A DNA stretch of 64,000 nucleotides from Bacilli bacterium (GTDB lineage Bacteria > Bacillota_I > Bacilli_A > RFN20 > CAG-826), in contig JALCDB010000004.1 in the NCBI GenBank assembly GCA_022641095.1, positions 92,773 to 156,772 of the forward strand. The letters are read 5' to 3'. The notes under the pieces were generated by a model. It was not told the origin of the DNA and ran no database searches. It saw only the letters and a program-made list of their open reading frames with translations. Numbering within the stretch: the stretch's first letter is position 1; every line of letters starts with the position of its first letter. Positions 9,238-29,769 of this stretch are shown piece by piece. Both the position numbers and the translations under genes were made by a program.

Positions 9238-9818
9238 TCATCGTCCTTTCCGTCGTCCATTTTTGAGATGTCGATGATAGAGACCGTTTTCGTATCGATT
9301 TTTTTGGTTTGCGGGATCTCAGGCCGCTCCCTTCCTTGCTCGTCTATGTGGTGAATGGGGATGCCGGGGGTTTGCTGGGTTGACATGTCGATAGAATTCG
9401 CCTCGGGGTTATTGATCTGCGGGTTGGGCTTAAAGAAGCCGTTCGCATCGATCGGCCCGTTGTTGGGAGGGAGTTTGTTGGCATTGGGGGCACCGGCGGC
9501 GGGGCCGTTGCCGGTGTAATAATTCTGCTGAACATAGACGGTCGAGGGACCAGCTGGGGCGGAAGGGGCCGGAGTCGGAGTGCCATTAGGATGGGCCAGC
9601 ATATCTATTTGGGCGGCCCTTATTTCATCTTTTTTCAAATCTTCGGGGAAAGGGGCGAAAAACTTCTTGCCACGGAAAAACCTTATGGTCCCCTTGAAGA
9701 AAACAGCGGAATATAGGCCGAGGCAATAAAGCCCATAGATGACAAGAACCGCCAATTCAAGCGGCAAAAGCAGGAAGTAGAGGAGTCCGAGGGCGAAGTT
9801 TTTCAAAAACTTACTCAT
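9234..9818 (-). CDS. Membrane protein with low-complexity Pro/Asn-rich tail
   Basis: A 194-residue protein. One long hydrophobic region (residues about 8-42, LGLLYFLLLPLELAVLVIYGLY onward) would make one or two helices. A basic patch (RFFRGKK) follows, then about 120 residues rich in Pro, Asn, Ala and Gly that look disordered, and an acidic end (KMDDGKDDE). The basic patch places the tail in the cytoplasm. Disordered tails of this type often serve as docking regions, but no partner can be named. It is coupled to the downstream gene by ATGA and lies 10-15 bases after the YybS-like gene. Confidence 0.72.
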   Translation of the reverse strand: MSKFLKNFALGLLYFLLLPLELAVLVIYGLYCLGLYSAVFFKGTIRFFRGKKFFAPFPEDLKKDEIRAAQIDMLAHPNGTPTPAPSAPAGPSTVYVQQNYYTGNGPAAGAPNANKLPPNNGPIDANGFFKPNPQINNPEANSIDMSTQQTPGIPIHHIDEQGRERPEIPQTKKIDTKTVSIIDISKMDDGKDDE

Positions 9819-9825
9819 GGTTAGT

Positions 9826-10731
9826 TCATTCTAGCGCGCGCGGGGCCTTAAACGAAAGCCTGACTATTAAAGAGGGGATGGTTAGGGCCGTCGTGACGAT
9901 ACCTCCAAGCAGCAGTCCGGAATAGCTTGGCATTTTTTGGTAAAGAAAGGCGAAAGCCATCCATCCGGCGGCTAGAAACAACCCCAGCATGAGGTAAGTC
10001 CAAGCGGGAAGCTTCCGAAAATACGCCAGCAAGGAATAGATGGTGAAGAAAATGGCGGCTACGAGGAAGCAATAACCAAGCGAAATCTCGGCAAAAGCCA
10101 ATCCGATCGCAATCATTGAGAAGGAAAGGGACAGGATGTCGTAAACCCAGGAATAGAGTTGCCAATCATTGGTTTTGATTCCAAAGTCGGAAAGAAGGGG
10201 AACGCTTATGATGTTGGACAAAAGAACCTCGACGAGAGAGTAAAGAAGAATGAGGCTGGGAACGAAATACGGGAAGGCGGCGTTGCTCGATAATCCCAAG
10301 GCCGTCGTGAGGAAGGCGATGAAATCGACGCCGCTCACGAGCTTAATGAGCGGAAGGGCGGCGTAGTTGAGACCCATTTCGGCAAGGGCGCATAAGAATA
10401 TAAGCAATGCGGACGGGAAGCCTTTCTTGAGCAAAAATCCGTATAGCGTTCCGACGATGGTGGCCGGAATGATATAGAAGAGGGTCGCCGCGATGTCGTA
10501 AGCGGTTACCCCTAATGACAAAGCCACCGCGGCCACAAGGTAAACCAAAATGTAGCGATCTTCGCAAACGATGACCGTAAGGGCGCTCACGAGAGGCAAA
10601 AAGACGATAACGAACAGCGCCGATAGCGGAACTAATGTGCTGAGGGTCGCCATCACGGCGTCCACGGCGCACATTAGGCCAACGAAGGCGAGGTTCTGCG
10701 CGGAACCGGTCCGTCGTTTGAAGAGCTTCAT
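9826..10731 (-). CDS. Polytopic membrane protein resembling YybS / ECF S-component (DUF2232-like)
   Basis: A 301-residue protein with about eight predicted helices. The beginning (FVGLMCAVDAVMATLSTLVPLSALFVIVFLP split over two helices) has the small-residue-rich first helix typical of ECF transporter S-components and YybS proteins. YybS is widespread in Firmicutes and poorly understood; ligand unknown. The frame continues 22 codons upstream, but a GATAAT box ends exactly 6 bases before the ATG at 10731. That hexamer would lie inside the extension, so 10731 is preferred and the mRNA may be leaderless. It is the first gene of the three-gene membrane operon. Confidence 0.72.
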   Translation of the reverse strand: MKLFKRRTGSAQNLAFVGLMCAVDAVMATLSTLVPLSALFVIVFLPLVSALTVIVCEDRYILVYLVAAVALSLGVTAYDIAATLFYIIPATIVGTLYGFLLKKGFPSALLIFLCALAEMGLNYAALPLIKLVSGVDFIAFLTTALGLSSNAAFPYFVPSLILLYSLVEVLLSNIISVPLLSDFGIKTNDWQLYSWVYDILSLSFSMIAIGLAFAEISLGYCFLVAAIFFTIYSLLAYFRKLPAWTYLMLGLFLAAGWMAFAFLYQKMPSYSGLLLGGIVTTALTIPSLIVRLSFKAPRALE

Positions 10732-10821
10732 GCTTTCATTATCCCCATTTACCCATCTTTTGGCGCATAGAAAAAAACTTTTTCGGTTCTTTTCCAAGAA
10801 TCGGGTCTATCCAATTGGTGA

Positions 10822-10925
10822 GGGGGCTTCTCTTTCCCCCCGTTTCCATACGCGAGAGGGAAGAGAAGAGGCCGAGGCAAGGCTAGCCACGGCTCGCCCC
10901 CTTTCGTCGCTCCCTGAGGCGTAAA
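10822..10925. other. GC-rich intergenic region with competing hairpins
   Basis: CTTCTCTT (10827-10834) pairs with AAGAGAAG (10861-10868), and after a one-base bulge CCC (10836-10838) pairs with GGG (10858-10860). The GGGGG run at 10822-10826 could instead pair with CCCCC at 10836-10840, so two folds exclude each other. No U-run follows on either strand. It lies between the divergent YybS-like gene and pcrA. Function not established. Confidence 0.35.
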
Positions 10926-10963
10926 TCGGCCTGTCAAGTCTTTATCGCCATCCATAGGAAGGG

Positions 10964-10984
10964 TATGCTTAACTTGCAGTTAAG
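10964..10984 (+). promoter_or_regulatory. pcrA -10 box and overlapping 7-base inverted repeat
   Basis: TATGCT (10964-10969) is the likely -10. CTTAACT (10968-10974) and AGTTAAG (10978-10984) form a perfect inverted repeat with a 3-base spacer. Its 3' arm overlaps the AAGGAA ribosome site (10982-10987), so the hairpin could hide the site or the DNA could be an operator. Confidence 0.45.
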
Positions 10985-10995
10985 GAACCTCGCTT

Positions 10996-15286
<4,291 letters not shown>

Positions 15287-18596: not shown

Positions 18597-19511
18597 ATGG
18601 AAAAAGAAGCGAACGAATTGCTCGAATGGCTCAAGAAGGCGGCTCAGTACGAGCTCCCTAACTACGACCAGTTCCCCCACGTGCCCCTTTACATGGAGCA
18701 GGTGGTGGGTTACATCAACGAGGTGTTCGCCCCACTTTCGAACGACGAGAAAAAGGAACTCACTTCCTTCATGGTCAATAACTACGTGAAGGCCAAGATG
18801 ATCCCCGAACCCGAAAGGAAGAAGTACCGCGAGAACCAATTGGGTTACCTTATCGCCATCACGGCGCTCAAGAACACAATGTCGATGTCGGAGATTTCGC
18901 TCCTCATGGAACTTGACAAGTCCATTAAGGAGGACAGTCCCCATGGCGTCTACGACTCTTACCGTTCGGCGAGCCAGGAAATCCTTTCCTCGCGCTCAAA
19001 GGAGACGGAGAAGAAGGTCGAGGCCATCATCTCCGCGTTCAAGGAAGAGACGGTCACGGACGAAAAAGGCGCGGCGGAGAAACTCAAGAAATCGCTGGGG
19101 TTATTGGCCCTCCGCATGGCGATCGAGTCGGTCACTTACAAACTCATCGCCGACATGATGGTGGATTCCTTGGCCAAGGCCCTTCATGACGAGAAGGCCT
19201 ATAATTATGAGAACACCCCGGGCCACCACGAAAGCAAACGCGAGCTGAAGATCGCGAAGGCTCAGGCCGAGCGTCTCGCCGCGGCGAAGGTCGCCCAGGA
19301 GCGGAAAGCGGCCGAAGAGGCCCGCAAAGCCGCCGAAGAGGCCCGCAAAGCCGCCGAAGAGGCCAAAAGGAAAGAGAACGAGGAGAAACTCGCGGCCGAG
19401 AAGAAAGCCAAAGAGGAGGCCCTAAAGAAAGCCCAGGCCGCCGCGAAAAGGAAACCGGCGAAGAAAGCCGTGAAGGCTCCCGCGCCGAAGAAAGGCAAGA
19501 AAGCCAAATGA
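18597..19511 (+). CDS. Unknown helical protein with Ala/Glu/Arg heptad repeats and a basic, histone-H1-like tail
   Basis: A 304-residue protein, not recognised. Residues 1-205 are soluble and mostly helical (LLEWLKKAAQYELPNYDQ; LTSFMVNNYVKAKMI). Residues about 215-285 form a highly charged coiled coil containing AEEARKA repeated as 7-residue units, encoded by exact 21-base DNA repeats. The last 20 residues are Lys/Ala/Pro-rich (KPAKKAVKAPAPKKGKKAK), like histone-H1-type tails that bind nucleic acid. The start at 18597 lies 4 bases after the gatB stop; its own stop overlaps galE (ATGA). Co-transcription with gatCAB and galE is likely. A nucleic-acid or ribosome-associated role is inference from the tail. 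Confidence 0.75.
   Translation: MEKEANELLEWLKKAAQYELPNYDQFPHVPLYMEQVVGYINEVFAPLSNDEKKELTSFMVNNYVKAKMIPEPERKKYRENQLGYLIAITALKNTMSMSEISLLMELDKSIKEDSPHGVYDSYRSASQEILSSRSKETEKKVEAIISAFKEETVTDEKGAAEKLKKSLGLLALRMAIESVTYKLIADMMVDSLAKALHDEKAYNYENTPGHHESKRELKIAKAQAERLAAAKVAQERKAAEEARKAAEEARKAAEEAKRKENEEKLAAEKKAKEEALKKAQAAAKRKPAKKAVKAPAPKKGKKAK
19311..19364 (+). repeat. In-frame 21-base tandem repeat
   Basis: Two identical 21-base units (19311-19331 and 19332-19352) and a third that matches for its first 12 bases encode AEEARKA heptads in the coiled coil. Exact DNA identity suggests recent duplication or slippage; copy number may vary between strains. Confidence 0.85.
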
Positions 19512-20530
19512 GTCTGAAACGGATTTTGGTCACGGGCGGGCTCGGCTTCATCGGAAGCGAGACCGTCATCGCCCTGCTTAAGGAAGGCTACGAGCCGATC
19601 GTCGTCGACGATTTATACAACGCCAAAGAGGTGGTCCTCGACCGCATTGAGACCATCAGCGGGCGTCACCCTCTTTTCTATAAAATCGATTGCTGCGACG
19701 AGAGGGCCCTTGAGGCCGCGTTTAAGGAAAACGAACTCGACGCGGTCATCCATTTCGCCGGGTACAAGGCCGTGGGTGAATCCGTCGCCAAGCCGACAAA
19801 ATATTACTCCAACAACCTTGGGAGCGCGTTGACGGTTCTTAGGCTTTGCAACCGGTATCGCATTCATAGCATTGTCTTTTCCTCCTCCGCGACCGTGTAC
19901 GGGGTTCCGGAGCGGGTTCCTCTTTTCGAGACCGATCCTCTTCGCGACGCGACCAACCCCTATGGCGAGACGAAGGTCATGATTGAGCGGATCCTCCGCG
20001 ACGCCGCGAAAGCCGATCCGACGCTCAACGTGGCGTTATTGCGTTATTTCAATCCGATCGGGGGGCATCCTTCCGGTCTTTTGGGCGAAGATCCCAATGG
20101 CATACCCAATAACCTCATGCCGTACATCTGCCAGGTGGCGGTCGGCAAGTTGCCGTATCTGCGGGTTTACGGCGACGATTACAAGACGCCGGACGGCACC
20201 GGGGTTCGCGATTACATCCACGTCGTGGATCTCGCGGAAGGCCATGTGGCGACCTTAAAGAAACTGGAAAAGGACCCCGGCCTCGTCGTCTATAACCTCG
20301 GAACCGGCAAAGGAACGTCGGTGCTTGAGCTCGTGCGGGCCTTTGAAAAGGCTAACGGCATCGAAATACCCTATAAGATCGAGGCCAGGCGGCCAGGCGA
20401 CGTCGACATGAACTACGCCAACTGCGACAAAGCCTTTAGGGAACTGGGCTGGAAAGCCCGCCTGACGATCGAGGACGCCTGCCGCGACGCCTATAACTTC
20501 CAGAAGAAGAACCCCAACGGGATTGAATGA
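19508..20530 (+). CDS. galE: UDP-glucose 4-epimerase
   Basis: A 340-residue extended SDR. The NAD-binding motif GGLGFIGSETV is near residue 10, SSSATVYG holds the catalytic serine/threonine region, and NPYGETK is the Tyr-x-x-x-Lys pair. RYFNPIGGHPSGLLGEDP and YIHVVDLAEGH match GalE closely. It interconverts UDP-glucose and UDP-galactose (and perhaps the N-acetyl forms), supplying galactose for the polysaccharide locus further downstream. Translationally coupled to the preceding gene. It is the last core gene before the accessory block. Confidence 0.95.
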   Translation: MSLKRILVTGGLGFIGSETVIALLKEGYEPIVVDDLYNAKEVVLDRIETISGRHPLFYKIDCCDERALEAAFKENELDAVIHFAGYKAVGESVAKPTKYYSNNLGSALTVLRLCNRYRIHSIVFSSSATVYGVPERVPLFETDPLRDATNPYGETKVMIERILRDAAKADPTLNVALLRYFNPIGGHPSGLLGEDPNGIPNNLMPYICQVAVGKLPYLRVYGDDYKTPDGTGVRDYIHVVDLAEGHVATLKKLEKDPGLVVYNLGTGKGTSVLELVRAFEKANGIEIPYKIEARRPGDVDMNYANCDKAFRELGWKARLTIEDACRDAYNFQKKNPNGIE

Positions 20531-20538
20531 ATAAGTTG

Positions 20539-20552
20539 ACAATACGTATTGT
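20539..20552. repeat. Perfect 14-base palindrome at the core/accessory boundary
   Basis: ACAATACGTATTGT is fully self-complementary and sits in the 36-base gap between the convergent galE and TOPRIM genes. With no loop it is a poor RNA terminator and looks more like a protein-binding or recombination site. Confidence 0.45.
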
Positions 20553-20566
20553 TTCGTCTCTGGTTT

Positions 20567-21295
20567 TTAATACTGAATTTCGTCGATTTTATCGTTTTTG
20601 ATTTTCTTCAAGACATAAGCGATATTGGAAGTGAGTTTGTTCGCCGCTTCGCTAAGACGGTGATTTAGGTACATATTCTCTTGTTGGAAAACCGTATCGA
20701 TGTTTTCAAGGACGAAACGGAAATCGGCCTCTTTGTCTTTCGGGTCGATTCCGAAGTTCTCCTTGAAAAGATGAAGGACGAAGCGTTCCTTTTTCCCGTT
20801 TTCGGAAGGGAAATAGTCGTTTTCGATAATCTCCTTTTCGTGAGGGGCGATCAAATCCCGATACGATCCTTTGCGGGCCAATAGCAGGAACAGTTCGATG
20901 GCGGGATTGGTGAAACAAAGGATCATATCCGATGTTTTGCGTTGCTTGATCTTATCGATTTCCGTTTGATCGTTTTTGGCGACGTCAAGATCGAAAACGA
21001 TGAGAACTTTGTCGCGTTCGCACTTGAAGCAGCCCTTGGGACCGCAATTGTCCCGTATGAATTTCAGAGCGATGTCGATCATGGCAAGAGGCGAGGTCCT
21101 ACCGATGTCGTTTCCGGTTTTCCTCAAAGGCCGGAAACGGACTGGCACGTTTTTGAAAAGCGTTGTGTTGGCGATTAAAGGGTTGATGAGGGAAACCTCC
21201 GTGTTGAGTCCCTCGTACAGCAGAAAAATGGTCCGAAGGGCGTCCTTTCGTGGCTGAGGTCTAATAAGATCATTCTCAATCAGCAGGGGCGTCAC
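20567..21295 (-). CDS. RloB-like TOPRIM nuclease-type protein, partner of the upstream ATPase
   Basis: A 242-residue protein with RloB/OLD-type TOPRIM features: the metal-binding glutamates in LLYEGLNTE (E28, E33), the DxD pair in VLIVFDLDV (D102, D104), and the family block CFTNPAIELFLLL near 128-139. TOPRIM domains of this type cut nucleic acid (tRNA in PARIS AriB, DNA in OLD). Start is GTG at 21295, 20 bases inside the ATPase gene, with AAGAAGG upstream, so the pair is translationally coupled. Such ATPase + RloB pairs are known as AbiL-, RloA/B- and PARIS-like phage defences. The assignment to a particular type is not possible by eye. Confidence 0.78.
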   Translation of the reverse strand: MTPLLIENDLIRPQPRKDALRTIFLLYEGLNTEVSLINPLIANTTLFKNVPVRFRPLRKTGNDIGRTSPLAMIDIALKFIRDNCGPKGCFKCERDKVLIVFDLDVAKNDQTEIDKIKQRKTSDMILCFTNPAIELFLLLARKGSYRDLIAPHEKEIIENDYFPSENGKKERFVLHLFKENFGIDPKDKEADFRFVLENIDTVFQQENMYLNHRLSEAANKLTSNIAYVLKKIKNDKIDEIQY

Positions 21296-22616
21296 CTTCG
21301 AAGGCCTTCTTCCCGTTCTCGGGGATTTTACGGAATACGCCCTTAAGGAACATCGCGGGCAAATTGCTGTCGGTGGTGGTGTTGAAATCGGTCAAAGGAT
21401 AAATGGCGGACACGCCATACATATCCTTTTCCGTGAAGTATATCTCGTCGCGGCGAAGCGAGGTTTTCATGAAGGCTGGATAATGAGTCGTGAAGATAAA
21501 CTGGGTGTCCTGCTTTTTCGTTTCCTGATCGAAGAAACGGAGAATGTATTCCGAACTTGATGGATGCATGCTTCGTTCCAATTCGTCCACGCAGTAGGTC
21601 TTCTTGGCGTTTTTGTTCGAGAAATAGGACATTAGGATGATGAATTTTTTGGTGCCTTCGCTTTCGTCGAGAAAATTGAACCAGGTTTTTAGGTAATGGT
21701 GCTTAAGGCGGAGGGTTTCGCATTTATAGGTCGTTTCGGGATCCTTGCTGAAAAAAAGGTAATTGTTCTCATAGGTTACCATGACGATGAGGCCTTTGGC
21801 TCGCTCAAGGTGGGCGATGATGTCCTGAATGACGGGGCCGGGGATCATTTTGTTGATGTCCTCATTCGGGATTCGAATTAGTTCAATATTCTCGATGCTT
21901 GGGTCGAATTTTTGCGTGTAGGCCGTGATGCGGCTTAAGTCTTTGTCTTGGATGTACACCATATTAGTGGAGGCGGCCCCAAGGATCACAAGGTCGTTTT
22001 TGAAGAAGGAATAGGCGCGTGAAAGATGATTGTAGAGGTCGCTCCCGCGTATCGCTTTGTCCGCTCCGTTGATGTAATTGAGGAACGAGTGATTGCGCAT
22101 AAGGCGGTTGAGTTGTTTATAGCCGTTTAGGAAAATGGCAAAAATCGGTTTGTCGTTCTTGTTCATCATGGCTTCGTTTAAGCCGTTTTTCAGCGAATAG
22201 ACCGTTTTGCCATGGATTTCCTTCGTTCCCACGATATTCAGATATTCGTTTGTGATGGCAAAAGAAGGGAAGGGAACCGTCTTTTTGATGAATTCCAAGC
22301 CATATTGATAAATGAAGCCTTCTTCTGAGAAAACCATCTCGATGAAAGAAGGGATTCCTTCGTTCTCCTTGAACGCGAAGTCGGTTTCCGTCAAGACGTT
22401 ATAGCCAACGAACATTTTAATGAAATTGGCGGCTTTGAGAATATTCGTTTTCCCACTTGCGTTATCCCCGTATATTCCCACGAATTTCAGAACGTTGATG
22501 CGGCCGATGGCCCGTTCGTGTTCCGGATGGCGGTTGATTTTGGACGTCGATGTCAGAAGAATCGTATTTTCGTCCTTATACGAACGGAAATTCTTGATCG
22601 TCATCTTCATAAGCAT
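21276..22616 (-). CDS. AAA15/AAA21-type ATPase, sensor partner of the RloB-like gene
   Basis: A 446-residue ABC/SMC-like ATPase. It begins MTIKNFRSYKDE, the usual first strand. Walker A GIYGDNASGKTNIL is at residues 47-60, Walker B YCVDELERS late in the chain, and the switch histidine in FIFTTHYPAFM. A large insert between the Walker motifs is typical of AbiLi and AriA. The start at 22616 is chosen because GAGGAT lies 7 bases upstream and a clear promoter (TTGATG-17-TATACT) lies just before it; the frame itself is open for a further 70 and more codons. Role by analogy: sense a phage trigger and release or activate the TOPRIM effector. Confidence 0.85.
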   Translation of the reverse strand: MLMKMTIKNFRSYKDENTILLTSTSKINRHPEHERAIGRINVLKFVGIYGDNASGKTNILKAANFIKMFVGYNVLTETDFAFKENEGIPSFIEMVFSEEGFIYQYGLEFIKKTVPFPSFAITNEYLNIVGTKEIHGKTVYSLKNGLNEAMMNKNDKPIFAIFLNGYKQLNRLMRNHSFLNYINGADKAIRGSDLYNHLSRAYSFFKNDLVILGAASTNMVYIQDKDLSRITAYTQKFDPSIENIELIRIPNEDINKMIPGPVIQDIIAHLERAKGLIVMVTYENNYLFFSKDPETTYKCETLRLKHHYLKTWFNFLDESEGTKKFIILMSYFSNKNAKKTYCVDELERSMHPSSSEYILRFFDQETKKQDTQFIFTTHYPAFMKTSLRRDEIYFTEKDMYGVSAIYPLTDFNTTTDSNLPAMFLKGVFRKIPENGKKAFEGDAPAD

Positions 22617-22872
22617 GGAACGTATCCTCGTTTCATCGATAGTATAGCGGCCCTCTGAATCGTCATCAATACAAAAGTCTTTATTTATTGCAAAGTTCGT
22701 CAAATGTTTATTTAAATTTACGTTTGTATTAAAAACATTCGATGAAATCTTTTCTTTTTCGCTTTCAATATCCTTCGTAATTAATTCCTCATCATAATAT
22801 AGAAGTGAAGCCCAATTTCGTACCAACGAGTTTAGGATCCATTTAAGTGAGGTAACAACGGCAGGATATTAG
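22617..22872 (-). pseudogene. Coding-like open stretch upstream of the ATPase, without a start codon
   Basis: In frame with the ATPase, the minus strand is open from a TAA at about 22872 to the ATPase start, about 80 codons. The translation has normal protein character (LKWILNSLVRNWASLLYYDEE split by charged helices) but no ATG or GTG; only a TTG at 22826. The ATPase promoter lies inside its downstream end. It could be a remnant of a longer or fused gene, or chance in AT-rich DNA. Confidence 0.3.
22641..22669 (-). promoter_or_regulatory. Promoter of the ATPase-TOPRIM pair
   Basis: On the minus strand TTGATG (22669-22664), 17 bases, TATACT (22646-22641). The expected transcript would start about 18 bases before the ATG and include the GAGGAT ribosome site. 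Confidence 0.65.
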
Positions 22873-22905
22873 CGTTACAATACATGTACGCGAGGTATCA
22901 CACAC

Positions 22906-23808
22906 ATGGAACAATTTTCCGTTAGTCTTTCCAATGGTCGTGCCCTTTTGGGCGTCGCCTACAAAGCCGAAGGAAGCAAAAGGAACCTTCTTATCATGAC
23001 GGGCATGAACGAGCATGCGACCCGTTACGAGGATTTGGCCAAATTCCTTAATACCAAAGGATTCGACGTTTACGTGCTAGATGCGGTCGGTCAAGGCCTT
23101 AACGCCCCGAAGGTCGAGGACCAGGAGAAGTGGTGGGTCGGCGCCTTCGACGACAACGTCATCGCGGCCAACATTAAAATCGAGGAACTCAAGAAGAAGA
23201 CCAAACTGCCGACGAGCATCATGGGCCACTCCATGGGATCGTTCATGGTCCTCCGCTACTTGGAGCTTTTCCCGAATACCGTCGCTTCGGTCATCGAGTG
23301 CGGATCCAATGGACCTGCGCATGGCAAGATGAAGATGGCGTATAACCTTTCGAAGATTCTCGTCAACAAGAAGAACTGGGACAAGCCATGCAAGACTTTG
23401 ACCAACGCCGGGTTGGGCGCTTATGCCAAAGCGGTTAAGCCCAGGAAGACGGATTTGGACTGGCTCTCTTATAACGAAGACAACGTGAATAAATACATCG
23501 CCGATCCCTATTGCGGGCATGAAGACACGGGCGGCTTCTGGCACGAGTTCCTGAAGGGCATGTCAAACATGTATTCAAAGAAGGAGTTGGCCAAAGTGTC
23601 CGGCAAGGAGAGAATCCTCGTCATATCCGGGCGCGACGACCCGGTAGGCGAGATGGGCAAAGGCCCAGTCAAACTGGCCGATATGTACAAGAAAAAGGGC
23701 TGCGAGGTTGAACTTCACGTCTATGAAGGCATGAGGCACGAGGTTCACAACGAAAAAAAGCATCAAATCGTTTATGACGACATCGCGAAGTTTCTCTTAG
23801 CGAAGTAA
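22906..23808 (+). CDS. Alpha/beta hydrolase, monoacylglycerol-lipase/lysophospholipase type
   Basis: A 300-residue serine hydrolase of the Hydrolase_4 family. The nucleophile elbow GHSMGSF is near residue 107; the acid is probably in SGRDDPVG near 245 and the histidine in MRHEVHNE near 280. Relatives release fatty acids from monoacylglycerols or lysophospholipids. It carries no signal peptide, so it is cytoplasmic. It is GC-rich like the core genes although it lies between two defence-type pairs. A TACAAT box at about 22874 and GAGGT about 10 bases before the ATG support separate transcription. Probably a host gene around which the defence pairs were inserted; an effector role is possible but unsupported. 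Confidence 0.85.
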   Translation: MEQFSVSLSNGRALLGVAYKAEGSKRNLLIMTGMNEHATRYEDLAKFLNTKGFDVYVLDAVGQGLNAPKVEDQEKWWVGAFDDNVIAANIKIEELKKKTKLPTSIMGHSMGSFMVLRYLELFPNTVASVIECGSNGPAHGKMKMAYNLSKILVNKKNWDKPCKTLTNAGLGAYAKAVKPRKTDLDWLSYNEDNVNKYIADPYCGHEDTGGFWHEFLKGMSNMYSKKELAKVSGKERILVISGRDDPVGEMGKGPVKLADMYKKKGCEVELHVYEGMRHEVHNEKKHQIVYDDIAKFLLAK

Positions 23809-24152
23809 TCAATAAACAACAAACAAGGGTTACCATTTGGTGGCCTTTTTTGTGTTTAATTCATTTGAAAATTGAGCGTCGGTATGAGAATACAATAATT
23901 GAAGTTTGTTATTTAGTAACGACTTCTCGGTGTCGTTTTGAATTTTGCGTCATGTTTTTGGTCTAAGCCATGGAATTTGATTGCTTTTGAGGCCTGAAGG
24001 AAGGCTTATAAACAGAAAAAGTGTTTAAAATGCGTGGGACCTTCTGTCGTTTTTTTGCCATATCTATTAATGAAAGGGTTCGAAACTGGGAGAAGACGGC
24101 AAGGATGCTTAGCAAAACGCTCTAATCCAATTTACGCTTATATGTTAATTAG
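23809..24152. other. AT-rich intergenic region after the hydrolase
   Basis: Contains a weak terminator-like stem at 23842-23866 (AAGG and TTACC against GGTGG and CCTT, then TTTTTT). No gene was found in the remaining 290 bases. Confidence 0.5.
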
Positions 24153-24181
24153 TTGCAGTTAAACGTAATGAATTGTATAGT
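24153..24181 (+). promoter_or_regulatory. Promoter of the second ATPase-TOPRIM operon
   Basis: TTGCAG (24153-24158), 17-base spacer, TATAGT (24176-24181), followed by AAGGAG and an ATG at 24204. Confidence 0.65.
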
Positions 24182-24203
24182 TGATTCGTAAGGAGCGCCA
24201 ACC

Positions 24204-25472
24204 ATGATTTTAAGTATTTCGATGAGCAATTATCGCGTTTTCTCGGAGAAAGTGACTTTGGATTTGTTGAGTCACTCTAATTCTCGTAGATTAGCCAGCA
24301 ATCTCATATCGAACGGGAACTTCAATATCGTGAAGTCGGCCGGTATATATGGAGCCAACAACTGTGGCAAGACGTCTTTCTTGAGCGGAGTCTCCACAAT
24401 CAAACGAGTTTTGTTGGGCAAGCAGGAATTCGATCCGGTGCCAAACCTATTCACTGGCGACCCCGTATCATCGTTTTCCATCGCCTTTCGTAACAGCGGC
24501 AGTGAATCGTGGCACGAGTACTCCTTTGCTTTTGATTCTAGGCGAGGCATCTTCAGCAAGGAGAAGTTGATTGCTTTTGGCAAAGACGCCTCGAACCACC
24601 GCCACGAGAGAATAATTTTCGAAAAAAATGTCGATGGTAACGTTTATTCATTGTTTGGCGAAAGAAGCAAAGACACCTTGTCGCTAGTTTCGTCTTCGTT
24701 GCCTTTGATGTATGCCTTATCTGACGCCAACGAGAAGGTGAAGAAATACCGAGGCGAACTTTTTGCCGCAGGATCGTCCATCGAGATTATTTCGATGTAC
24801 AACATCCCTTTTGATAAGACCATTGGCGTTCTTAAGGGAACGGACAAAACCAAAAAGGACGCAATCGTCTCCTTCGTTAAGAACGCCGATTTGTCGTTGA
24901 ATGATTTGTCGTATGAGCCTAACGCCAAAGTCAATATCAGCGACGAGAAAGGTCGAGACATTAGTGAGAATGCGTTGCGAATGGCTCCTGGCCTGGAAGA
25001 CCGAGCCAAACTTTTTAGCACCTATATGGGCAAGAAAGTCCCGAGTCTCGTTTTCGACTCGACGGGAACCAAGAAGATCGAAGCCTTGTCCTCTTACGTT
25101 TTGGAGGCATTAACCGAGGGCAAAACCCTTTTCGTCGATGAACTTGACAGTGGGCTTCATTTTCGGCTCACCAGGGCCATCGTTTCGCTTTTTAACAACA
25201 TTGGCAACGAAAAGGGCCAAATGGTGTTCACGACACATGACGTGATGTTGCTCAACACGAAGCGGCTGATGAGAAAAGAACAGATTTGGTTTATCGAGAA
25301 AAACAAGGACGGAGCGGTGGATTTGTATCCGTTGTCGAGATTTACCGCTGCCGATGGGACAAGAGAGACGAGTGACCTCATAAAGGAATATAGCCGAGGC
25401 GACTTCAGCTACATTCCAAATCCGGATTTCGTCGATTCGCTTATTAAGAGCCTTCCAAAGGATAGTAAATGA
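24204..25472 (+). CDS. AAA15/AAA21-type ATPase of a second defence-like pair
   Basis: A 422-residue ATPase with the same plan as the one at 21276-22616. It starts MILSISMSNYRVFSEK, has Walker A GIYGANNCGKTSFL at residues 47-60 (the same position), signature-like STGTKKIEALSSY, Walker B TLFVDELDSGLH near 308-319, and the switch histidine in MVFTTHDVMLLN. Identity outside these motifs looks low, so the pairs diverged long ago or arrived separately. AAGGAG lies 6 bases before the ATG. The stop overlaps the next gene (ATGA). Role by analogy with AbiLi/AriA: trigger sensing and control of the TOPRIM effector. Confidence 0.85.
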   Translation: MILSISMSNYRVFSEKVTLDLLSHSNSRRLASNLISNGNFNIVKSAGIYGANNCGKTSFLSGVSTIKRVLLGKQEFDPVPNLFTGDPVSSFSIAFRNSGSESWHEYSFAFDSRRGIFSKEKLIAFGKDASNHRHERIIFEKNVDGNVYSLFGERSKDTLSLVSSSLPLMYALSDANEKVKKYRGELFAAGSSIEIISMYNIPFDKTIGVLKGTDKTKKDAIVSFVKNADLSLNDLSYEPNAKVNISDEKGRDISENALRMAPGLEDRAKLFSTYMGKKVPSLVFDSTGTKKIEALSSYVLEALTEGKTLFVDELDSGLHFRLTRAIVSLFNNIGNEKGQMVFTTHDVMLLNTKRLMRKEQIWFIEKNKDGAVDLYPLSRFTAADGTRETSDLIKEYSRGDFSYIPNPDFVDSLIKSLPKDSK

Positions 25473-26089
25473 TGGACGACGCAATGAGGGTTCATTTTGT
25501 TTGCGAGGGAGCCGAAGAGATTTGTTTCATCGACTCGCTAACGAAGGTTGGAGCTTTCGATGGCGCTTATAAGATTAGCCGGGAAGACGCGCATGGGGCT
25601 GGCAATATCCCCATCGTTTTCGATCAAGCCTTTCAGAACTTCGATTATGATGCCGTGTTCGTTATTTTGGATGTCGATTGCACGTCCAATGGGACTTATA
25701 AAGACACTATGGCCAAACTTGAAACCACCTTAGGTTTTTCGGCACGGCAAATCGTTCTTTTTACGAATCCTTGCACTGTTCAATTGTTTTTGGCGTCTAG
25801 GTCTGATGGTGTGTTGCCTAGCCAATCCAAGAATTCGTTCACGAAGTACTTCAATACGTTATGGAACGGCGGGCACAAACCCTATGCCGCGCATGCGTAT
25901 CAGCTCGAAAAACTTAAAGCCGAATTCTCTTTATCAGATTATGAGGCGATGATGAAACGGATAAAGACATATTCAACCAAACCGGAAGATTTGCCTAGCA
26001 CTTCAGCACATTTCTTTCTATCGGAATTCAGACAATCGAACACTAAATGGTCAGAAGGCATCATGGATAATAAGAAGAGGTTATTCTAA
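25469..26089 (+). CDS. RloB-like TOPRIM protein of the second pair
   Basis: A 206-residue TOPRIM protein. The catalytic residues are E13 and E17 in VCEGAEE and D68, D70 in VILDVDCT; FTNPCTVQLFLA (98-109) matches the FTNPAIELFLLL block of the other TOPRIM gene. This conserved trio defines the RloB-like family. It is presumed to be the nuclease effector. It is coupled to the ATPase by ATGA overlap and is followed 2 bases later by a membrane-protein gene, giving a three-gene operon. Confidence 0.8.
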   Translation: MMDDAMRVHFVCEGAEEICFIDSLTKVGAFDGAYKISREDAHGAGNIPIVFDQAFQNFDYDAVFVILDVDCTSNGTYKDTMAKLETTLGFSARQIVLFTNPCTVQLFLASRSDGVLPSQSKNSFTKYFNTLWNGGHKPYAAHAYQLEKLKAEFSLSDYEAMMKRIKTYSTKPEDLPSTSAHFFLSEFRQSNTKWSEGIMDNKKRLF

Positions 26090-26091
26090 TT

Positions 26092-26799
26092 TTGTTTGGC
26101 AAAGTTATGAAACAGTTTTTTCTTGATTTGTGGACTTTACATGGGTTGATTGGAAAGGTTTGCGACCTGTTTTTGGTCACTATTTTTCTTGTTGCGCTAA
26201 TCGGGATTCCTTTTGGAATTACTCATTTCCTAATTCGTGATGCGGTTGTGGGAACCAACTATTTCCTTGGCGAGAGCGCCCCACTGCATGATGCAAATTA
26301 TCTAGTAAGAGTATTAGAAGTATGGTCTTCTTCATCCGTGGCCATCATCAGCAAGGATGGTTCTTTCGCTGTAAAAGAAGGAAATTTTGTCAACGCCAAA
26401 TTGAGAGTCGGGCAAAACGCCGAAAGCATGTTAAAGGATCATGAGTTTGATTGCGATGATTTTAAGCTGAAGGATCATACGGGAATGTACGTTCCGATGG
26501 GCGATATTCTTGAAGCCGTTGGTTGGGACGGAATAGACATCCATTTCGATGAATCAGCCGGTGGTCATGTTATGAGCTCTGCTGATTTCCCCACTAAGAA
26601 AGCAATCAAGGATTATTCTTTTGTTGGAACAAAGGTCGGAGCCGGTGAAGCGTTTTCCTTTTCGGTATCGTTCGCAATGGAAGAAGGGTATCAAGTCGAA
26701 GATGAACTGATGGTTTTGGAGTGCGATTTCTATATTGGTAGCATTGGCTATAAGCAGGGAACGGACATTGTTCTCTTGCCAAGGCCGGCCTCTTTATAA
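26092..26799 (+). CDS. Single-pass membrane protein, third gene of the second defence operon
   Basis: A 235-residue protein of unknown family. One strong helix (residues about 23-48, VCDLFLVTIFLVALIGIPFGI) is followed by about 185 mostly polar residues with a beta-rich look and no cysteines in a conserved pattern. The TTG at 26092 is 11 bases after AGAGG and 2 bases after the TOPRIM stop; an ATG five codons later (26107) is the alternative. Spacing says it is translated with the ATPase-TOPRIM pair. AbiL- and PARIS-type systems usually have no membrane gene, so it could be an added effector, an anchor, or an unrelated passenger. Confidence 0.65.
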   Translation: MFGKVMKQFFLDLWTLHGLIGKVCDLFLVTIFLVALIGIPFGITHFLIRDAVVGTNYFLGESAPLHDANYLVRVLEVWSSSSVAIISKDGSFAVKEGNFVNAKLRVGQNAESMLKDHEFDCDDFKLKDHTGMYVPMGDILEAVGWDGIDIHFDESAGGHVMSSADFPTKKAIKDYSFVGTKVGAGEAFSFSVSFAMEEGYQVEDELMVLECDFYIGSIGYKQGTDIVLLPRPASL

Positions 26800-27239
26800 T
26801 TGTCCGTTATACGTGAAGGCGCCCATGAATGAACGATAGGACGAATATCTTAATGTCCAGCCAGAAACTTAAATCATCATTGGGCATATAAGAAGCCATG
26901 TTTCGCTTTCTCTTTGCGATCGGGTCCGCATGGTCACTTACATGTTATTAAAAGCATTCTCTGATTTTTTGCTTTCGAGGTTATGGTCGTCGCCTCGCTT
27001 TCGTAAACGTTGGTTATTTAGTCTGGTAAGCCTTAATTGGCGTTGAAGAGGACCCTCCAATCGGCATCAAGCGATCAATGATTCTTGTGAATATCCGAAG
27101 CGGCTGGCGTTCGTATCGGGGAAAGTGTTTTATAAGATATCGCGGGGGAAGCCTATGTTAAATATTGGGGGAAGGCTTCATCGACATAAAGAAAACCTGA
27201 TTTTTTAACGAATTTCGTTGGTTTTGACTTAAAAAACTA
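26800..27239. other. AT-rich intergenic region at the start of the polysaccharide locus
   Basis: No gene seen in about 440 bases. It holds a 7-base inverted repeat, GAAGCCT (27148-27154) and AGGCTTC (27173-27179), whose arms also begin as near-direct repeats (GGGGGAAG). Confidence 0.45.
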
Positions 27240-27296
27240 TATAATAGTCGCCTTGATTAATCAGTAATGATAGATTCGAATGCCTCGGTTACTGAT
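27218..27296 (+). promoter_or_regulatory. Candidate promoter facing into the 3' end of the polymerase gene
   Basis: TTGGTT (27218-27223), 16 bases, TATAAT (27240-27245) point rightward although the next gene is on the other strand. Downstream, ATCAGTAA (27260-27267) and TTACTGAT (27289-27296) are perfect inverted arms, the second covering the polymerase stop codon. It may drive a short antisense RNA. Confidence 0.35.
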
Positions 27297-29406
27297 ACCG
27301 CAATGGCACTTTCCGTTTCGTCGCCTTTGCCAGCCTGACCTCGTATTTCGTGTCGAACAAGCACGTGAGGCGCTGATAAAGGTTCTCGACGTAGGCTTCG
27401 ATGTTCTCGTATGGGGCGAGCATCGTCTGCGACAGCGGCGAGCATATGGCAAACAGCGCCGGCACGGCGAGATCCAGTAAGATCAGCACCATCGCCGCGT
27501 ATGGCTGGTAGTCGTCGGAGGGGATGAGCAGGAAATCCGTCACGCACAGCGAGACGGTCACCAAGGCCGCCTCGATCGAGAAGTATATCGCGCACGAGAC
27601 AAGCAGCGGCTTGAGCCCCGCTTTCCCGTCCAGGGCAACGCTTACGGACAGGAACGCTGCCCAAAGGACGCCGAGGACGATGACGCTGACGAGGTTGCTC
27701 ACGCCGGAGAAGGAAAGGGCTGCGTCCGTGACGAACAAGGCTATGAAGGCGGAGAGAAGGATCGCGAACAGGCGCGTCCTCCCTTTCCCCTTCAGGCCGA
27801 TCAGGAAATGGATGACGAACGGCGAGGCTATGTACATCAGCCCCAACTGGATCGGGAAGAATGGGCTCAGGAAGCCCGCTACGGCGCCGTAGTGGCCATA
27901 GAAAGCCGAAAGGCCTATCGCTATGGCGAAGGCCGGCGTGGCGGCCACGAGGAAGATCTGGGCCCCGCGCAGGGCCTTGCTTCCGCGTTTAGGGCCAATT
28001 AGAACCGGTTTAAGCTCCTTGGCGGTTCGTTTCTCCTTCGTTCCGGGTTTTTTGAGGAGGGCGAGATTAGTCATGAGGGGCATATACGTCATGAACAGGA
28101 GCATCATGTCCTTGGTCTGCATGTTGAGGAAGTTGGTATCCTCGAAGAGCCCATGGAAGAGGACGCAGACGAAAAGGGCCAGCGAAAGCGTGGTCCCGTA
28201 ACGTTTCGCCTTAAGGCATTTGACGTAGCAGAAGACGAAATACGATAGGAGCGCGATATAAAGGGTTACGCCGAGCAACCCCAGACGGCCCAGCACGTCG
28301 AAGAAACCGCTGTGGGCCGATCCGATGCTTGGGGCAAGCCCGTCTATTTGAGAACCCAACAGCCAACTGAAGTTCCAGTCCCCGGTTCCGAACAGGATCC
28401 GAACCGGATCGGAGAATACGAGCGTTAGCAACAGCGACCAGATGTTGGATCGGCTATAGAAGCTCGAAGTCGTTGAGGGGTTCGTCAGATCGTAATAAAA
28501 GGAGAAGTACTGCGATACTTTGCTGAGGAAAGGGACCTTGTCGGCGAGCCCGGAAGGCTTTATGGAGAATAAGAACGAGACCAAAAGGGCCAGAATCGAT
28601 ATTTTGACGATGGAAATCGCGAGGTGGGATTTGAAGGTTTTGACAAGGTTCCACACGAAATAGAACAACGCGAAAAGGATGGAAATGACGAGCGAGGTTC
28701 TGCTTTGGATCAAAAACTGGTTCGCGAGCAAAAACACCCCAACGACCGACCACCACCATCTCCTTGTGTTGGCCGCTAGGAAAAAGGACGAGACCATCGC
28801 AACGAAAACCACGGTGCCGTAAGTGTTGCGGTTGTTCGTGAAGGAAAGAAGATTGGCGTTTATGGAAGAGTTTTGGGGATCGAGGATAACCGCATAGGTC
28901 GAAGTTTCGACGATATAACTATAAATACAGGCGGAAACACCTATGACGAGGCCGCCGAAGAAGTACACGTTCCATTGCCTGACGTTGATCACGCTTTTGG
29001 GCATGATGGCGAACATGACGTAGAAGGCGATGCAGGCCGCGGCCCAGAAGGTCACGTATCGGAAACGGAGATCCGTCGTCAAATGGTACACGCCGCCGCC
29101 GACCGTGAATTCCGGGAAGCAAAACACAGCGACAACGTCAATAACGAACAGCAAAGAGACAAGGGACAGGAAAACCCAGTTCGTTTTGATATGAAAACGG
29201 AATCTCGCCAAATAGAAGACCATCAAAGCCAGAACGACGCACAAAGCGAATGTTAGATAGAATTCCGTGCCACTCATGAGCGTGGTATATACGGGGTCGA
29301 AGAAAGCCACACCCTCTTCGAAGAAAGCCGTAACCACCAAATAAGCAATGGTTACGATCATCATTAATAGGTATGGCGGTTTTTTGGCTTTTGGTGTCGT
29401 TTCCAT
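27289..29406 (-). CDS. O-antigen-ligase/Wzy-type polysaccharide polymerase
   Basis: A 705-residue membrane protein with an estimated 16-18 helices. The first 430 residues follow the Wzy/WaaL pattern: many helices and a large loop after the RTS-containing helix (FLIQSRTSLVISILFALF), with the conserved SAHSGFFDVLGRLGL (ahn-x-yl-x-lgr-x-Gl) block near residue 355. The last 270 residues add about six more helices, unusual for the family, which normally ends near 450. It should join repeat units or attach glycan outside the membrane. The ATG at 29406 is preferred over an upstream TTG, because a GATAAT box ends 8 bases before it. It is GC-rich, unlike the AT-rich genes that follow. Confidence 0.8.
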   Translation of the reverse strand: METTPKAKKPPYLLMMIVTIAYLVVTAFFEEGVAFFDPVYTTLMSGTEFYLTFALCVVLALMVFYLARFRFHIKTNWVFLSLVSLLFVIDVVAVFCFPEFTVGGGVYHLTTDLRFRYVTFWAAACIAFYVMFAIMPKSVINVRQWNVYFFGGLVIGVSACIYSYIVETSTYAVILDPQNSSINANLLSFTNNRNTYGTVVFVAMVSSFFLAANTRRWWWSVVGVFLLANQFLIQSRTSLVISILFALFYFVWNLVKTFKSHLAISIVKISILALLVSFLFSIKPSGLADKVPFLSKVSQYFSFYYDLTNPSTTSSFYSRSNIWSLLLTLVFSDPVRILFGTGDWNFSWLLGSQIDGLAPSIGSAHSGFFDVLGRLGLLGVTLYIALLSYFVFCYVKCLKAKRYGTTLSLALFVCVLFHGLFEDTNFLNMQTKDMMLLFMTYMPLMTNLALLKKPGTKEKRTAKELKPVLIGPKRGSKALRGAQIFLVAATPAFAIAIGLSAFYGHYGAVAGFLSPFFPIQLGLMYIASPFVIHFLIGLKGKGRTRLFAILLSAFIALFVTDAALSFSGVSNLVSVIVLGVLWAAFLSVSVALDGKAGLKPLLVSCAIYFSIEAALVTVSLCVTDFLLIPSDDYQPYAAMVLILLDLAVPALFAICSPLSQTMLAPYENIEAYVENLYQRLTCLFDTKYEVRLAKATKRKVPLRYQ

Positions 29407-29420
29407 GTCATTCAATTATC

Positions 29421-29769
29421 CGACCAGAGGGCAAAACGGACAAGCGCTTATGTTTATGAGCATAACGGGGTGCGAAACCGGAAGCGTCAAATTCGGATCT
29501 TGGCTTCTTTCTCCGATGTGGTTTGACAAGAGTTTTTGTACGTTTTAGGAGGCAAATTAAGAATCTTCAAGGTATGACCAAAACCGTTAAGGAAATTATC
29601 ATTGCAACGCTATATGTCTTTTGGCCAACGATTGCCCATTCTTTGACGATTCTGATCGAGGGAGTTTCTCGTTCGTAGCAACAGACATGAAGGCTTTTAC
29701 GAACTTGCGGCTTGCGCTGACAACTCTTTAAGAACGCGTCACTTTGCTGACAAGGCCAAGCAAACCAGG
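29421..29769. other. Intergenic region upstream of the polymerase gene
   Basis: About 350 bases with no supported gene. A 34-codon frame (ATG at 29575) could make a hydrophobic peptide, but its nearest AGGAGG lies 21 bases upstream. Confidence 0.4.

Follow-up and report, generated by a model that had tools for sequence, protein, structure and literature searches.

Two gene pairs around a hydrolase gene

We analyzed a 64,000-nucleotide stretch of DNA (the window) from a Bacilli bacterium (GenBank assembly GCA_022641095.1, contig JALCDB010000004.1, positions 92,773 to 156,772). The contig spans 161,518 bases of a draft genome that is 1.59 Mb in size and 88.8% complete. The window carries two gene pairs, pair 1 at 20567-22616 on the minus strand and pair 2 at 24204-26089 on the plus strand. 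Each consists of an ATPase gene (A1, A2) followed by an overlapping gene for a TOPRIM protein (T1, T2), and a hydrolase gene lies between the pairs (Table 1). We argue that both are probably separate, complete abortive-infection pairs of the AbiL/RloAB type, and that they entered the galE-hydrolase edge of a polysaccharide locus independently of one another.

Table 1. Genes of the two pairs and their immediate surroundings (positions are those of the window)
Feature	Coordinates	Strand	Description
T1	20567..21295	-	RloB/AbiLii-type TOPRIM protein, 242 amino acids, GTG start; presumed pair 1 effector
A1	21276..22616	-	AbiLi/RloA-type ABC-like ATPase, 446 amino acids, ATG start; T1 partner
A2	24204..25472	+	AbiLi-type ABC-like ATPase, 422 amino acids; T2 partner
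T2	25469..26089	+	Divergent AbiLii-like TOPRIM protein, 206 amino acids; NPCTVQ where RloB has NPxxE
X	26092..26799	+	Orphan 235-amino-acid protein with a hydrophobic N-terminal stretch
Alpha/beta-hydrolase (Hydrolase_4)	22906..23808	+	Genus gene, outside both pairs; marks the insertion site; Pfam 129 bits
galE-like epimerase gene	19508..20530	+	Left border of the insertion site

A reading made earlier from the letters alone (the sequence-only reading) had proposed these two pairs, and their layout holds: all four open reading frames (ORFs) are open throughout, with overlaps of 20 bp (A1/T1) and 4 bp (A2/T2), and the two ATPase starts lie 1.6 kb apart in opposite directions. The longest A1 frame (516 amino acids, TTG start) was judged unlikely and the ATG at 22616 preferred, although the family scans of A1 were made on the longer ORF. 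The motifs, recomputed here, are likewise in place. Specifically, Walker A occupies residues 50-57 in both ATPases (GDNASGKT in A1, GANNCGKT in A2), Walker B residues 341-347 and 309-315, and a TTH motif residues 376-378 and 343-345, in A1 and A2 respectively. T1 and T2 carry acidic residues near the N-terminus (E28 and E33; E13, E16, and E17), a DxD motif (102-104; 68-70), and a TNP motif that begins at residue 129 or 99. The glutamate, DxD, and TNP of the proposed common TOPRIM plan are thus shared; the glutamate that follows NP in T1 and in RloB is missing from T2.

Family assignment

Both ATPases match the Pfam AAA_21 family (A1 85.6 bits, A2 82.6 bits; cut-off 27) and score highly on the PADLOC AbiLi model PDLC02335 (217.5 and 214.4 bits), far above their scores on the AriA model of PARIS (85.0 and 76.8 bits). 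T1 exceeds the cut-off of the Pfam RloB family PF13707 (34.9 bits; cut-off 31.5), whereas T2 falls below it (14.7 bits); on the PADLOC AbiLii model, T1 reaches 28.4 bits. The wider T2 type is recognized at E<=0.01 by AbiLii in 34 of 35 members, by RloB in 8, and by the OLD-like TOPRIM family PF20469 in 7. Neither T1 nor T2 matches PF20469 or DUF4435 (PF14491) at E<=0.1, and none of the four proteins passes an NCBIfam cut-off. Among the known systems named in the sequence-only reading, AbiL and RloAB are therefore borne out by the AbiLi and RloB scores, and membership in PARIS was rejected for want of a DUF4435 match. The profile searches it proposed gave AbiLi and AAA_21 for both ATPases and RloB for T1.

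A1 and A2 share 24% identity (E 3e-14), which is beyond chance; blastp returns no hit between T1 and T2. Compared by profile, the T2 family hits a broad set of RloB proteins with probability 98.8 (E 6e-17) and a narrower T1-type set with probability 43 (E 2.5e-4). T2 belongs to a sister branch. Sequence searches of the Protein Data Bank (PDB) returned nothing for T1 and one chance match for A2, profile searches of it gave chance matches for T2 and nothing for A2, and plasmid searches with T1 and T2 gave no match. A useful reference is the Lactococcus phage proPhi7, in which two adjacent genes annotated 'abortive phage resistance protein' score 254 bits on AbiLi and 64.4 bits on AbiLii.

Two lineages of complete pairs

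Each type of TOPRIM gene travels with its own type of ATPase. Searched with T2, 224 family genomes gave matches at 27 places in 23 genomes, and a pair-2-type ATPase directly adjoins the TOPRIM gene in all 25 of the T2-like loci returned, counting one (L005) in which the ATPase is split into two ORFs and some that are cut by contig ends. A T1 search of 279 order genomes matched 14. Beside nine of the ten strong loci (E<=2e-15) stands a pair-1-type ATPase, and at the tenth the contig ends; of the four weak loci (E 2e-5 to 1e-3), two have an ATPase and two have none. Both types are patchily spread: of 37 genus genomes, one has the T1 type, and of 220 family genomes, 24 have T2-type matches.

Maximum-likelihood trees of 51 pairs (26 pair-2-type, 8 pair-1-type, and 17 unlabelled rows) separate the types. 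Specifically, one branch parts the labelled pair-1-type rows from the pair-2-type rows in the ATPase tree (support 100/99), and one branch does so in the TOPRIM tree (100/98). Since each row was collected with one gene of the pair, TOPRIM or ATPase, as bait, the agreement is informative for whichever gene was not the bait. The two window pairs are not the products of a recent duplication, and they are best read, from trees and gene order, as separate arrivals, as had been suspected from their divergence.

A variable gap between galE and the hydrolase gene

The site at which the pairs lie is variable in relatives. Among 37 genus genomes, the hydrolase is matched in 31 (20 of the 21 good ones) and galE in 35, one of them (G010) weakly. 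Thus, the gene called lipase-like in the sequence-only reading is indeed a hydrolase, but it is a usual gene of the genus, mostly found beside galE, and this synteny led us to reject it as a third component of either pair. Both genes lie on one fetched stretch in 28 genomes. The gap between them, measured between match ends, is 20-117 bp in 16 genomes, 387-420 bp in 3, and 961-2379 bp in 9, and it holds cargo in 9 of the 28. Of the other genomes, five could not be joined (G002, G013, and G017 have no hydrolase match; G015 and G016 have the two genes on different contigs), and three (G008, G010, and G034) have no usable match for galE or the hydrolase. In G004 (L155), galE and the hydrolase are 18.7 kb apart on one contig; a pyruvate-formate-lyase-like gene (Pfam) lies in that interval amid genes that look microcompartment-like by eye.

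The cargo differs from genome to genome, as judged from Pfam scans of ten proteins and blastp clusters for the others. Three of the filled gaps carry a sugar-transferase-type gene, alone or with another ORF (G022, G024, G030), and others carry alpha-amylase-type genes (G032, G036, G023), an iron alcohol dehydrogenase (G035), or, in the window's own genome, pair 1. In G033 (L148), the gap holds a frameshifted ATPase gene and an RloB gene (78.8 bits) in the orientation opposite to pair 1. Given this decayed copy alongside pair 1, RloAB-type pairs have probably entered the gap at least twice.

Pair 2 sits after the hydrolase. Together with X, it is bounded on one side by the hydrolase and on the other by a gene family that trails the hydrolase in many relatives. 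The GC (guanine plus cytosine) content is 0.44-0.46 in the pairs, 0.58 in the upstream genes, and 51% in the hydrolase.

A TOPRIM branch without the RloB glutamate

When named genomes were scanned with the ATPase alignment, at least 277 relatives came up, and the best 80 by ATPase score (L165-L244) were retained. Their sources are Lachnospiraceae and other Bacillota, Spirochaetes, Ruminobacter, and others. Of the 80 ATPases, 66 have a called T2-type ORF next to them; five of these ORFs are stubs of 72-115 amino acids. Pooling family and named loci, which partly overlap, and counting fragments gave 85 distinct T2-type hits, 80 of them readable at NP. The position of the RloB glutamate is occupied by M in 54 sequences, L in 23, V in 1, and E in 2; window T2 has V. 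Immediately after it, 74 of the 80 sequences have Q and one (L217) has E. The two loci that keep the glutamate, L033 and L034, form a sister branch of the other pair-2-type rows. On the T1 side, the corresponding E134 is invariant in 10 of 10 T1-type proteins and at least 90% conserved in a broader set (n=35). Both T2-type alignments show T2 residues E13, G14, E17, D68, N100, P101, Q105, K121, and Y139 as invariant or conserved to at least 90%; D70 reaches this level in one of the two.

The AlphaFold model of T2 is confident (predicted local distance difference test 92.6, predicted template modeling score 0.90) and alternates strands and helices as TOPRIM folds do; that of T1 is less so (83.7, 0.80). 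According to the accessible part of PMC6755086, E400, D455, and D457 of the Burkholderia pseudomallei OLD protein hold metal A, and E404, T506, and E508 hold metal B; single changes at the site have no clear effect on cleavage, and triple changes do affect it. By position, T2 E13, D68, and D70 would correspond to the metal-A set, E17 to E404, and the lost glutamate to E508. Given the OLD result, loss of one metal-site residue need not stop cleavage. We speculate, tentatively, that the pair-2 type forms a widespread two-gene defence family of its own, whose glutamate-less TOPRIM protein has a changed, perhaps one-metal, chemistry or a changed target, or both, compared with RloB and AbiLii. If so, the lost glutamate would be one that helps to hold the second metal, and a near-invariant glutamine would stand beside its place, with a lysine and a tyrosine further on.

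Broken effectors and genomic neighbours

Of the 80 named loci, 19 have an intact ATPase but no whole TOPRIM partner: at 14 no T2-type ORF was called, and at 5 it is a stub. One of the 19, L199, is cut off too early for a verdict; among the 79 loci that can be evaluated, the other 18 have a TOPRIM gene that is partial or internally deleted (12) or has left no trace (6), a count in which broken ATPases are missed, because loci were picked by ATPase score, and draft assembly errors may be included. Shortened TOPRIM ORFs occur at six more named loci (L170, L186, L203, L218, L235, and L236). Among the 220 family genomes there are 26 pair-2-type ATPases at E<=1e-60; a T2-type match lies beside 22, two (G022:C12 and G057:C38) have none, and two are at a contig edge. 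Broken TOPRIM genes behind whole ATPases fit an effector that is costly to its carrier.

The surroundings of pair-2-type loci, a crude check on the defence-island enrichment that the sequence-only reading had asked about, hint at defence islands. From 276 neighbouring proteins of the named loci, 133 were sampled, and 4 that ran past the locus end were dropped, leaving 129. Among the Pfam families listed for them are ThiF (4 proteins), phage integrase (3), DncV-like cyclase (2), and AlbA_2 Schlafen (2), and, as single genes, an N6 methylase, a Schlafen helicase, STALD, and MobA; the rest include housekeeping genes. On PADLOC, E1-E2 tops the list (5 of 129), and 165 families are matched in the 129 neighbours versus 88 in 121 control proteins. 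That surplus is only a hint, because one protein can match many models, the families listed were the 25 commonest per set, and the control came from other genomes. The control set includes one Cas1 among the families listed, and its PADLOC models are mostly of what we take, from their names, to be kinase, cysteine-desulfurase, and ABC types. In G086, Cas9-like and TIR-like genes, recognized by eye from their first residues, follow the pair.

Other features of the region

The gene for X starts 2 bp past the T2 stop. X has no family match at E<=0.1 in Pfam, PADLOC, or NCBIfam, is present among the 37 genus genomes in its own genome alone, and matches only its own copies among the ORFs of the loci searched; whether it is part of pair 2 is uncertain. 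Within 19000-29500, no structured RNA reaches the Rfam gathering score. The few short flanking repeats found are chance-like. A promoter scan gave 7 hits, fewer than the mean of 10.2 in shuffled sequence, and was therefore not used; terminator-like sites number 14 versus 9.5 in the shuffle comparison.

Beyond X, a 708-amino-acid gene at 27289-29415 lies on the minus strand; in many relatives, its blastp cluster follows the hydrolase on the plus strand. The family that trails the hydrolase looks by eye like part of a polysaccharide locus. Further on, 30000-54000 has a low GC content (0.39), and some of its ORFs look glycosyltransferase-like by eye; it is perhaps a polysaccharide locus.

How the pairs might act, and what else they might be

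The sequences themselves show the gene content, the motifs, the family relations, the joint inheritance of ATPase and TOPRIM genes, and how variable the site is. From their relatives, we infer that the pairs serve in defence. The notion is that the ATPase would most likely sense a cue of infection and control the TOPRIM protein, by freeing or activating it. Once triggered, the TOPRIM protein would cut nucleic acid, and its cutting would stop growth of the infected cell. The model for this is PARIS, in which, according to the available text of PMC12409363, an ATPase hexamer holds and then releases the TOPRIM tRNase AriB, which cuts tRNA; by analogy, the ATPases here may sense infection and free or activate their partners. 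The same analogy makes RNA, such as tRNA, a more likely target than phage DNA, and we give an RNA target roughly even chances. We found no open-licence paper that gives the nuclease target or trigger of AbiL/RloAB pairs.

That both pairs are AbiL/RloAB-type systems is argued by the strong AbiLi scores, the T1 score above the RloB cut-off, the consistent pairing, and the separation in the trees. The proPhi7 genes score on the same two PADLOC models. Near-empty or otherwise filled gaps in relatives and the GC contrast favour separate entry. Published work adds, besides tRNA cutting by AriB, that Fusobacterium nucleatum AbiLii is toxic in E. coli (in the portion of PMC3985639 at hand) and that two TOPRIM_OLD/AAA pairs have been described as toxin-antitoxin pairs (PMC10440598, in excerpt).

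Several observations weigh against this interpretation. At E<=1e-3, all 14 control genomes contain a hit to the AbiLi model, presumably because the protein is an ABC-type ATPase, and only strong AbiLi scores therefore count; the RloB model has a hit in one of 14. The AbiLii match of T2 is weak (20.1 bits, with 28 profile positions in the best stretch). Against the PDB, Foldseek yields nothing at E<=1e-3 for the model of T1 or of T2, and its top hits are other kinds of protein than TOPRIM: for T2, lumazine synthases come first (E 0.012), the OLD C-terminal structure 6nk8 third (E 0.019), and 6njw 34th (0.20), and for T1 nothing sensible appears. The proPhi7 ATPase branches beside the pair-2 type (96/91) and its TOPRIM protein with viral RloB (96/80), and partners may therefore be exchanged at greater depth; finer branching also differs between the two trees, in which several rows are long, which speaks against strict co-inheritance. 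In the same portion of PMC3985639, F. nucleatum AbiLi failed to neutralise its AbiLii and lactococcal AbiL genes were non-toxic in E. coli, which makes restraint by the ATPase doubtful. Finally, an archaeal OLD-family ATPase is reported to be apparently not antiviral and to act in the cell cycle (PMC12796447, as far as its accessible sections go).

The last of these suggests that the pairs could have a role outside defence, for example in DNA repair or a stress response, and A1 does have a sub-threshold SMC_N match (29.4 bits; cut-off 40). We regard such a role as improbable given the patchy spread of both types, the decayed copy in G033, and the CBASS-like, restriction, and Schlafen genes near some pair-2-type loci. 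Slightly less improbable, and still unlikely, is that the pairs act as addictive toxin-antitoxin modules whose main effect is to keep mobile DNA stable. The TOPRIM relics and losses behind whole ATPases are what a costly effector would leave, and ATPase relatives (<60% identity) occur on plasmids. However, inspection by eye of the window ORFs near the pairs, where no profile scan was made, picked out no mobility gene, and both pair types also occur on predicted viral contigs. Toxin-antitoxin and defence functions are, moreover, not exclusive.

The sequence-only reading had also raised a single two-module system, in which the four genes would work only jointly. The closeness of the two ATPase starts around one gene is in keeping with that idea, as are G046, where an RloAB pair lies ~9.5 kb from a pair-2-type pair on one contig, and a second RloA-like ATPase (>40 bits) in the flanks of 5 of the 80 named pair-2-type loci, a count that excludes a weak 78-amino-acid fragment in L231. 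But defence genes commonly cluster, the gene between the pairs is a genus gene, and the pairs have opposite orientations. Of the 220 family genomes, 41 have RloB matches (34 above cut-off); dropping G024, G030, and G034, where the RloB hit is the T2-type gene itself, leaves 38 (4 below cut-off). These co-occur with the 24 T2-type genomes in only 3 (the window's own, G046, and G086) versus 4.1 expected (one-sided Fisher p 0.83), or in 2 versus 3.9 without the window's own genome. We therefore dropped the joint system as highly implausible: each type stands alone elsewhere, the trees separate them alike, and they do not tend to co-occur, which argues for two complete systems. A separate observation concerns L335 (G055), where a second ATPase and a short ORF, TOPRIM-like by eye, lie at 9795-11551, upstream of a pair-2-type pair.

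The galE-hydrolase gap offers a fixed place to seek variable defence and surface genes in the genus. The glutamate-less TOPRIM branch, which spans Bacillota, Spirochaetota, and others, is a natural comparison for how such effectors cut and choose their targets.

Comparison with known systems

Both window pairs resemble AbiL (AbiLi/AbiLii) of Lactococcus lactis in having two genes, an AbiLi-type ATPase and then a TOPRIM protein. They differ in their AbiLii scores (T1 28.4 and T2 20.1 versus 64.4 bits for proPhi7), a comparison made through models rather than the original AbiL sequence. Pair 1 is like RloAB in that T1 passes the RloB cut-off and keeps NPxxE; T2 does neither, and a look by eye beside the window pairs, where no scan was made, showed no restriction gene. 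PARIS (AriA/AriB) shares the plan of an ATPase with a separate TOPRIM gene, and its AriA model does match the window ATPases; unlike PARIS, T1 and T2 lack a DUF4435 match, and the ATPases favour AbiLi by far. With the Class 2 OLD protein of B. pseudomallei, the window TOPRIM proteins share the glutamate and DxD, and T2 also a second glutamate four residues on and the third-ranked Foldseek hit, 6nk8. In OLD, however, ATPase and TOPRIM form one chain, and the metal-B residue E508 (PMC6755086, accessible part) has no acidic counterpart in T2, if the positional matching is right. Finally, the NetFlax pairs, TOPRIM_OLD D44 and D60 with AAA D29 (C. algidicarnis, S. agalactiae), share the two-gene plan, as far as their description in the excerpted PMC10440598 goes.

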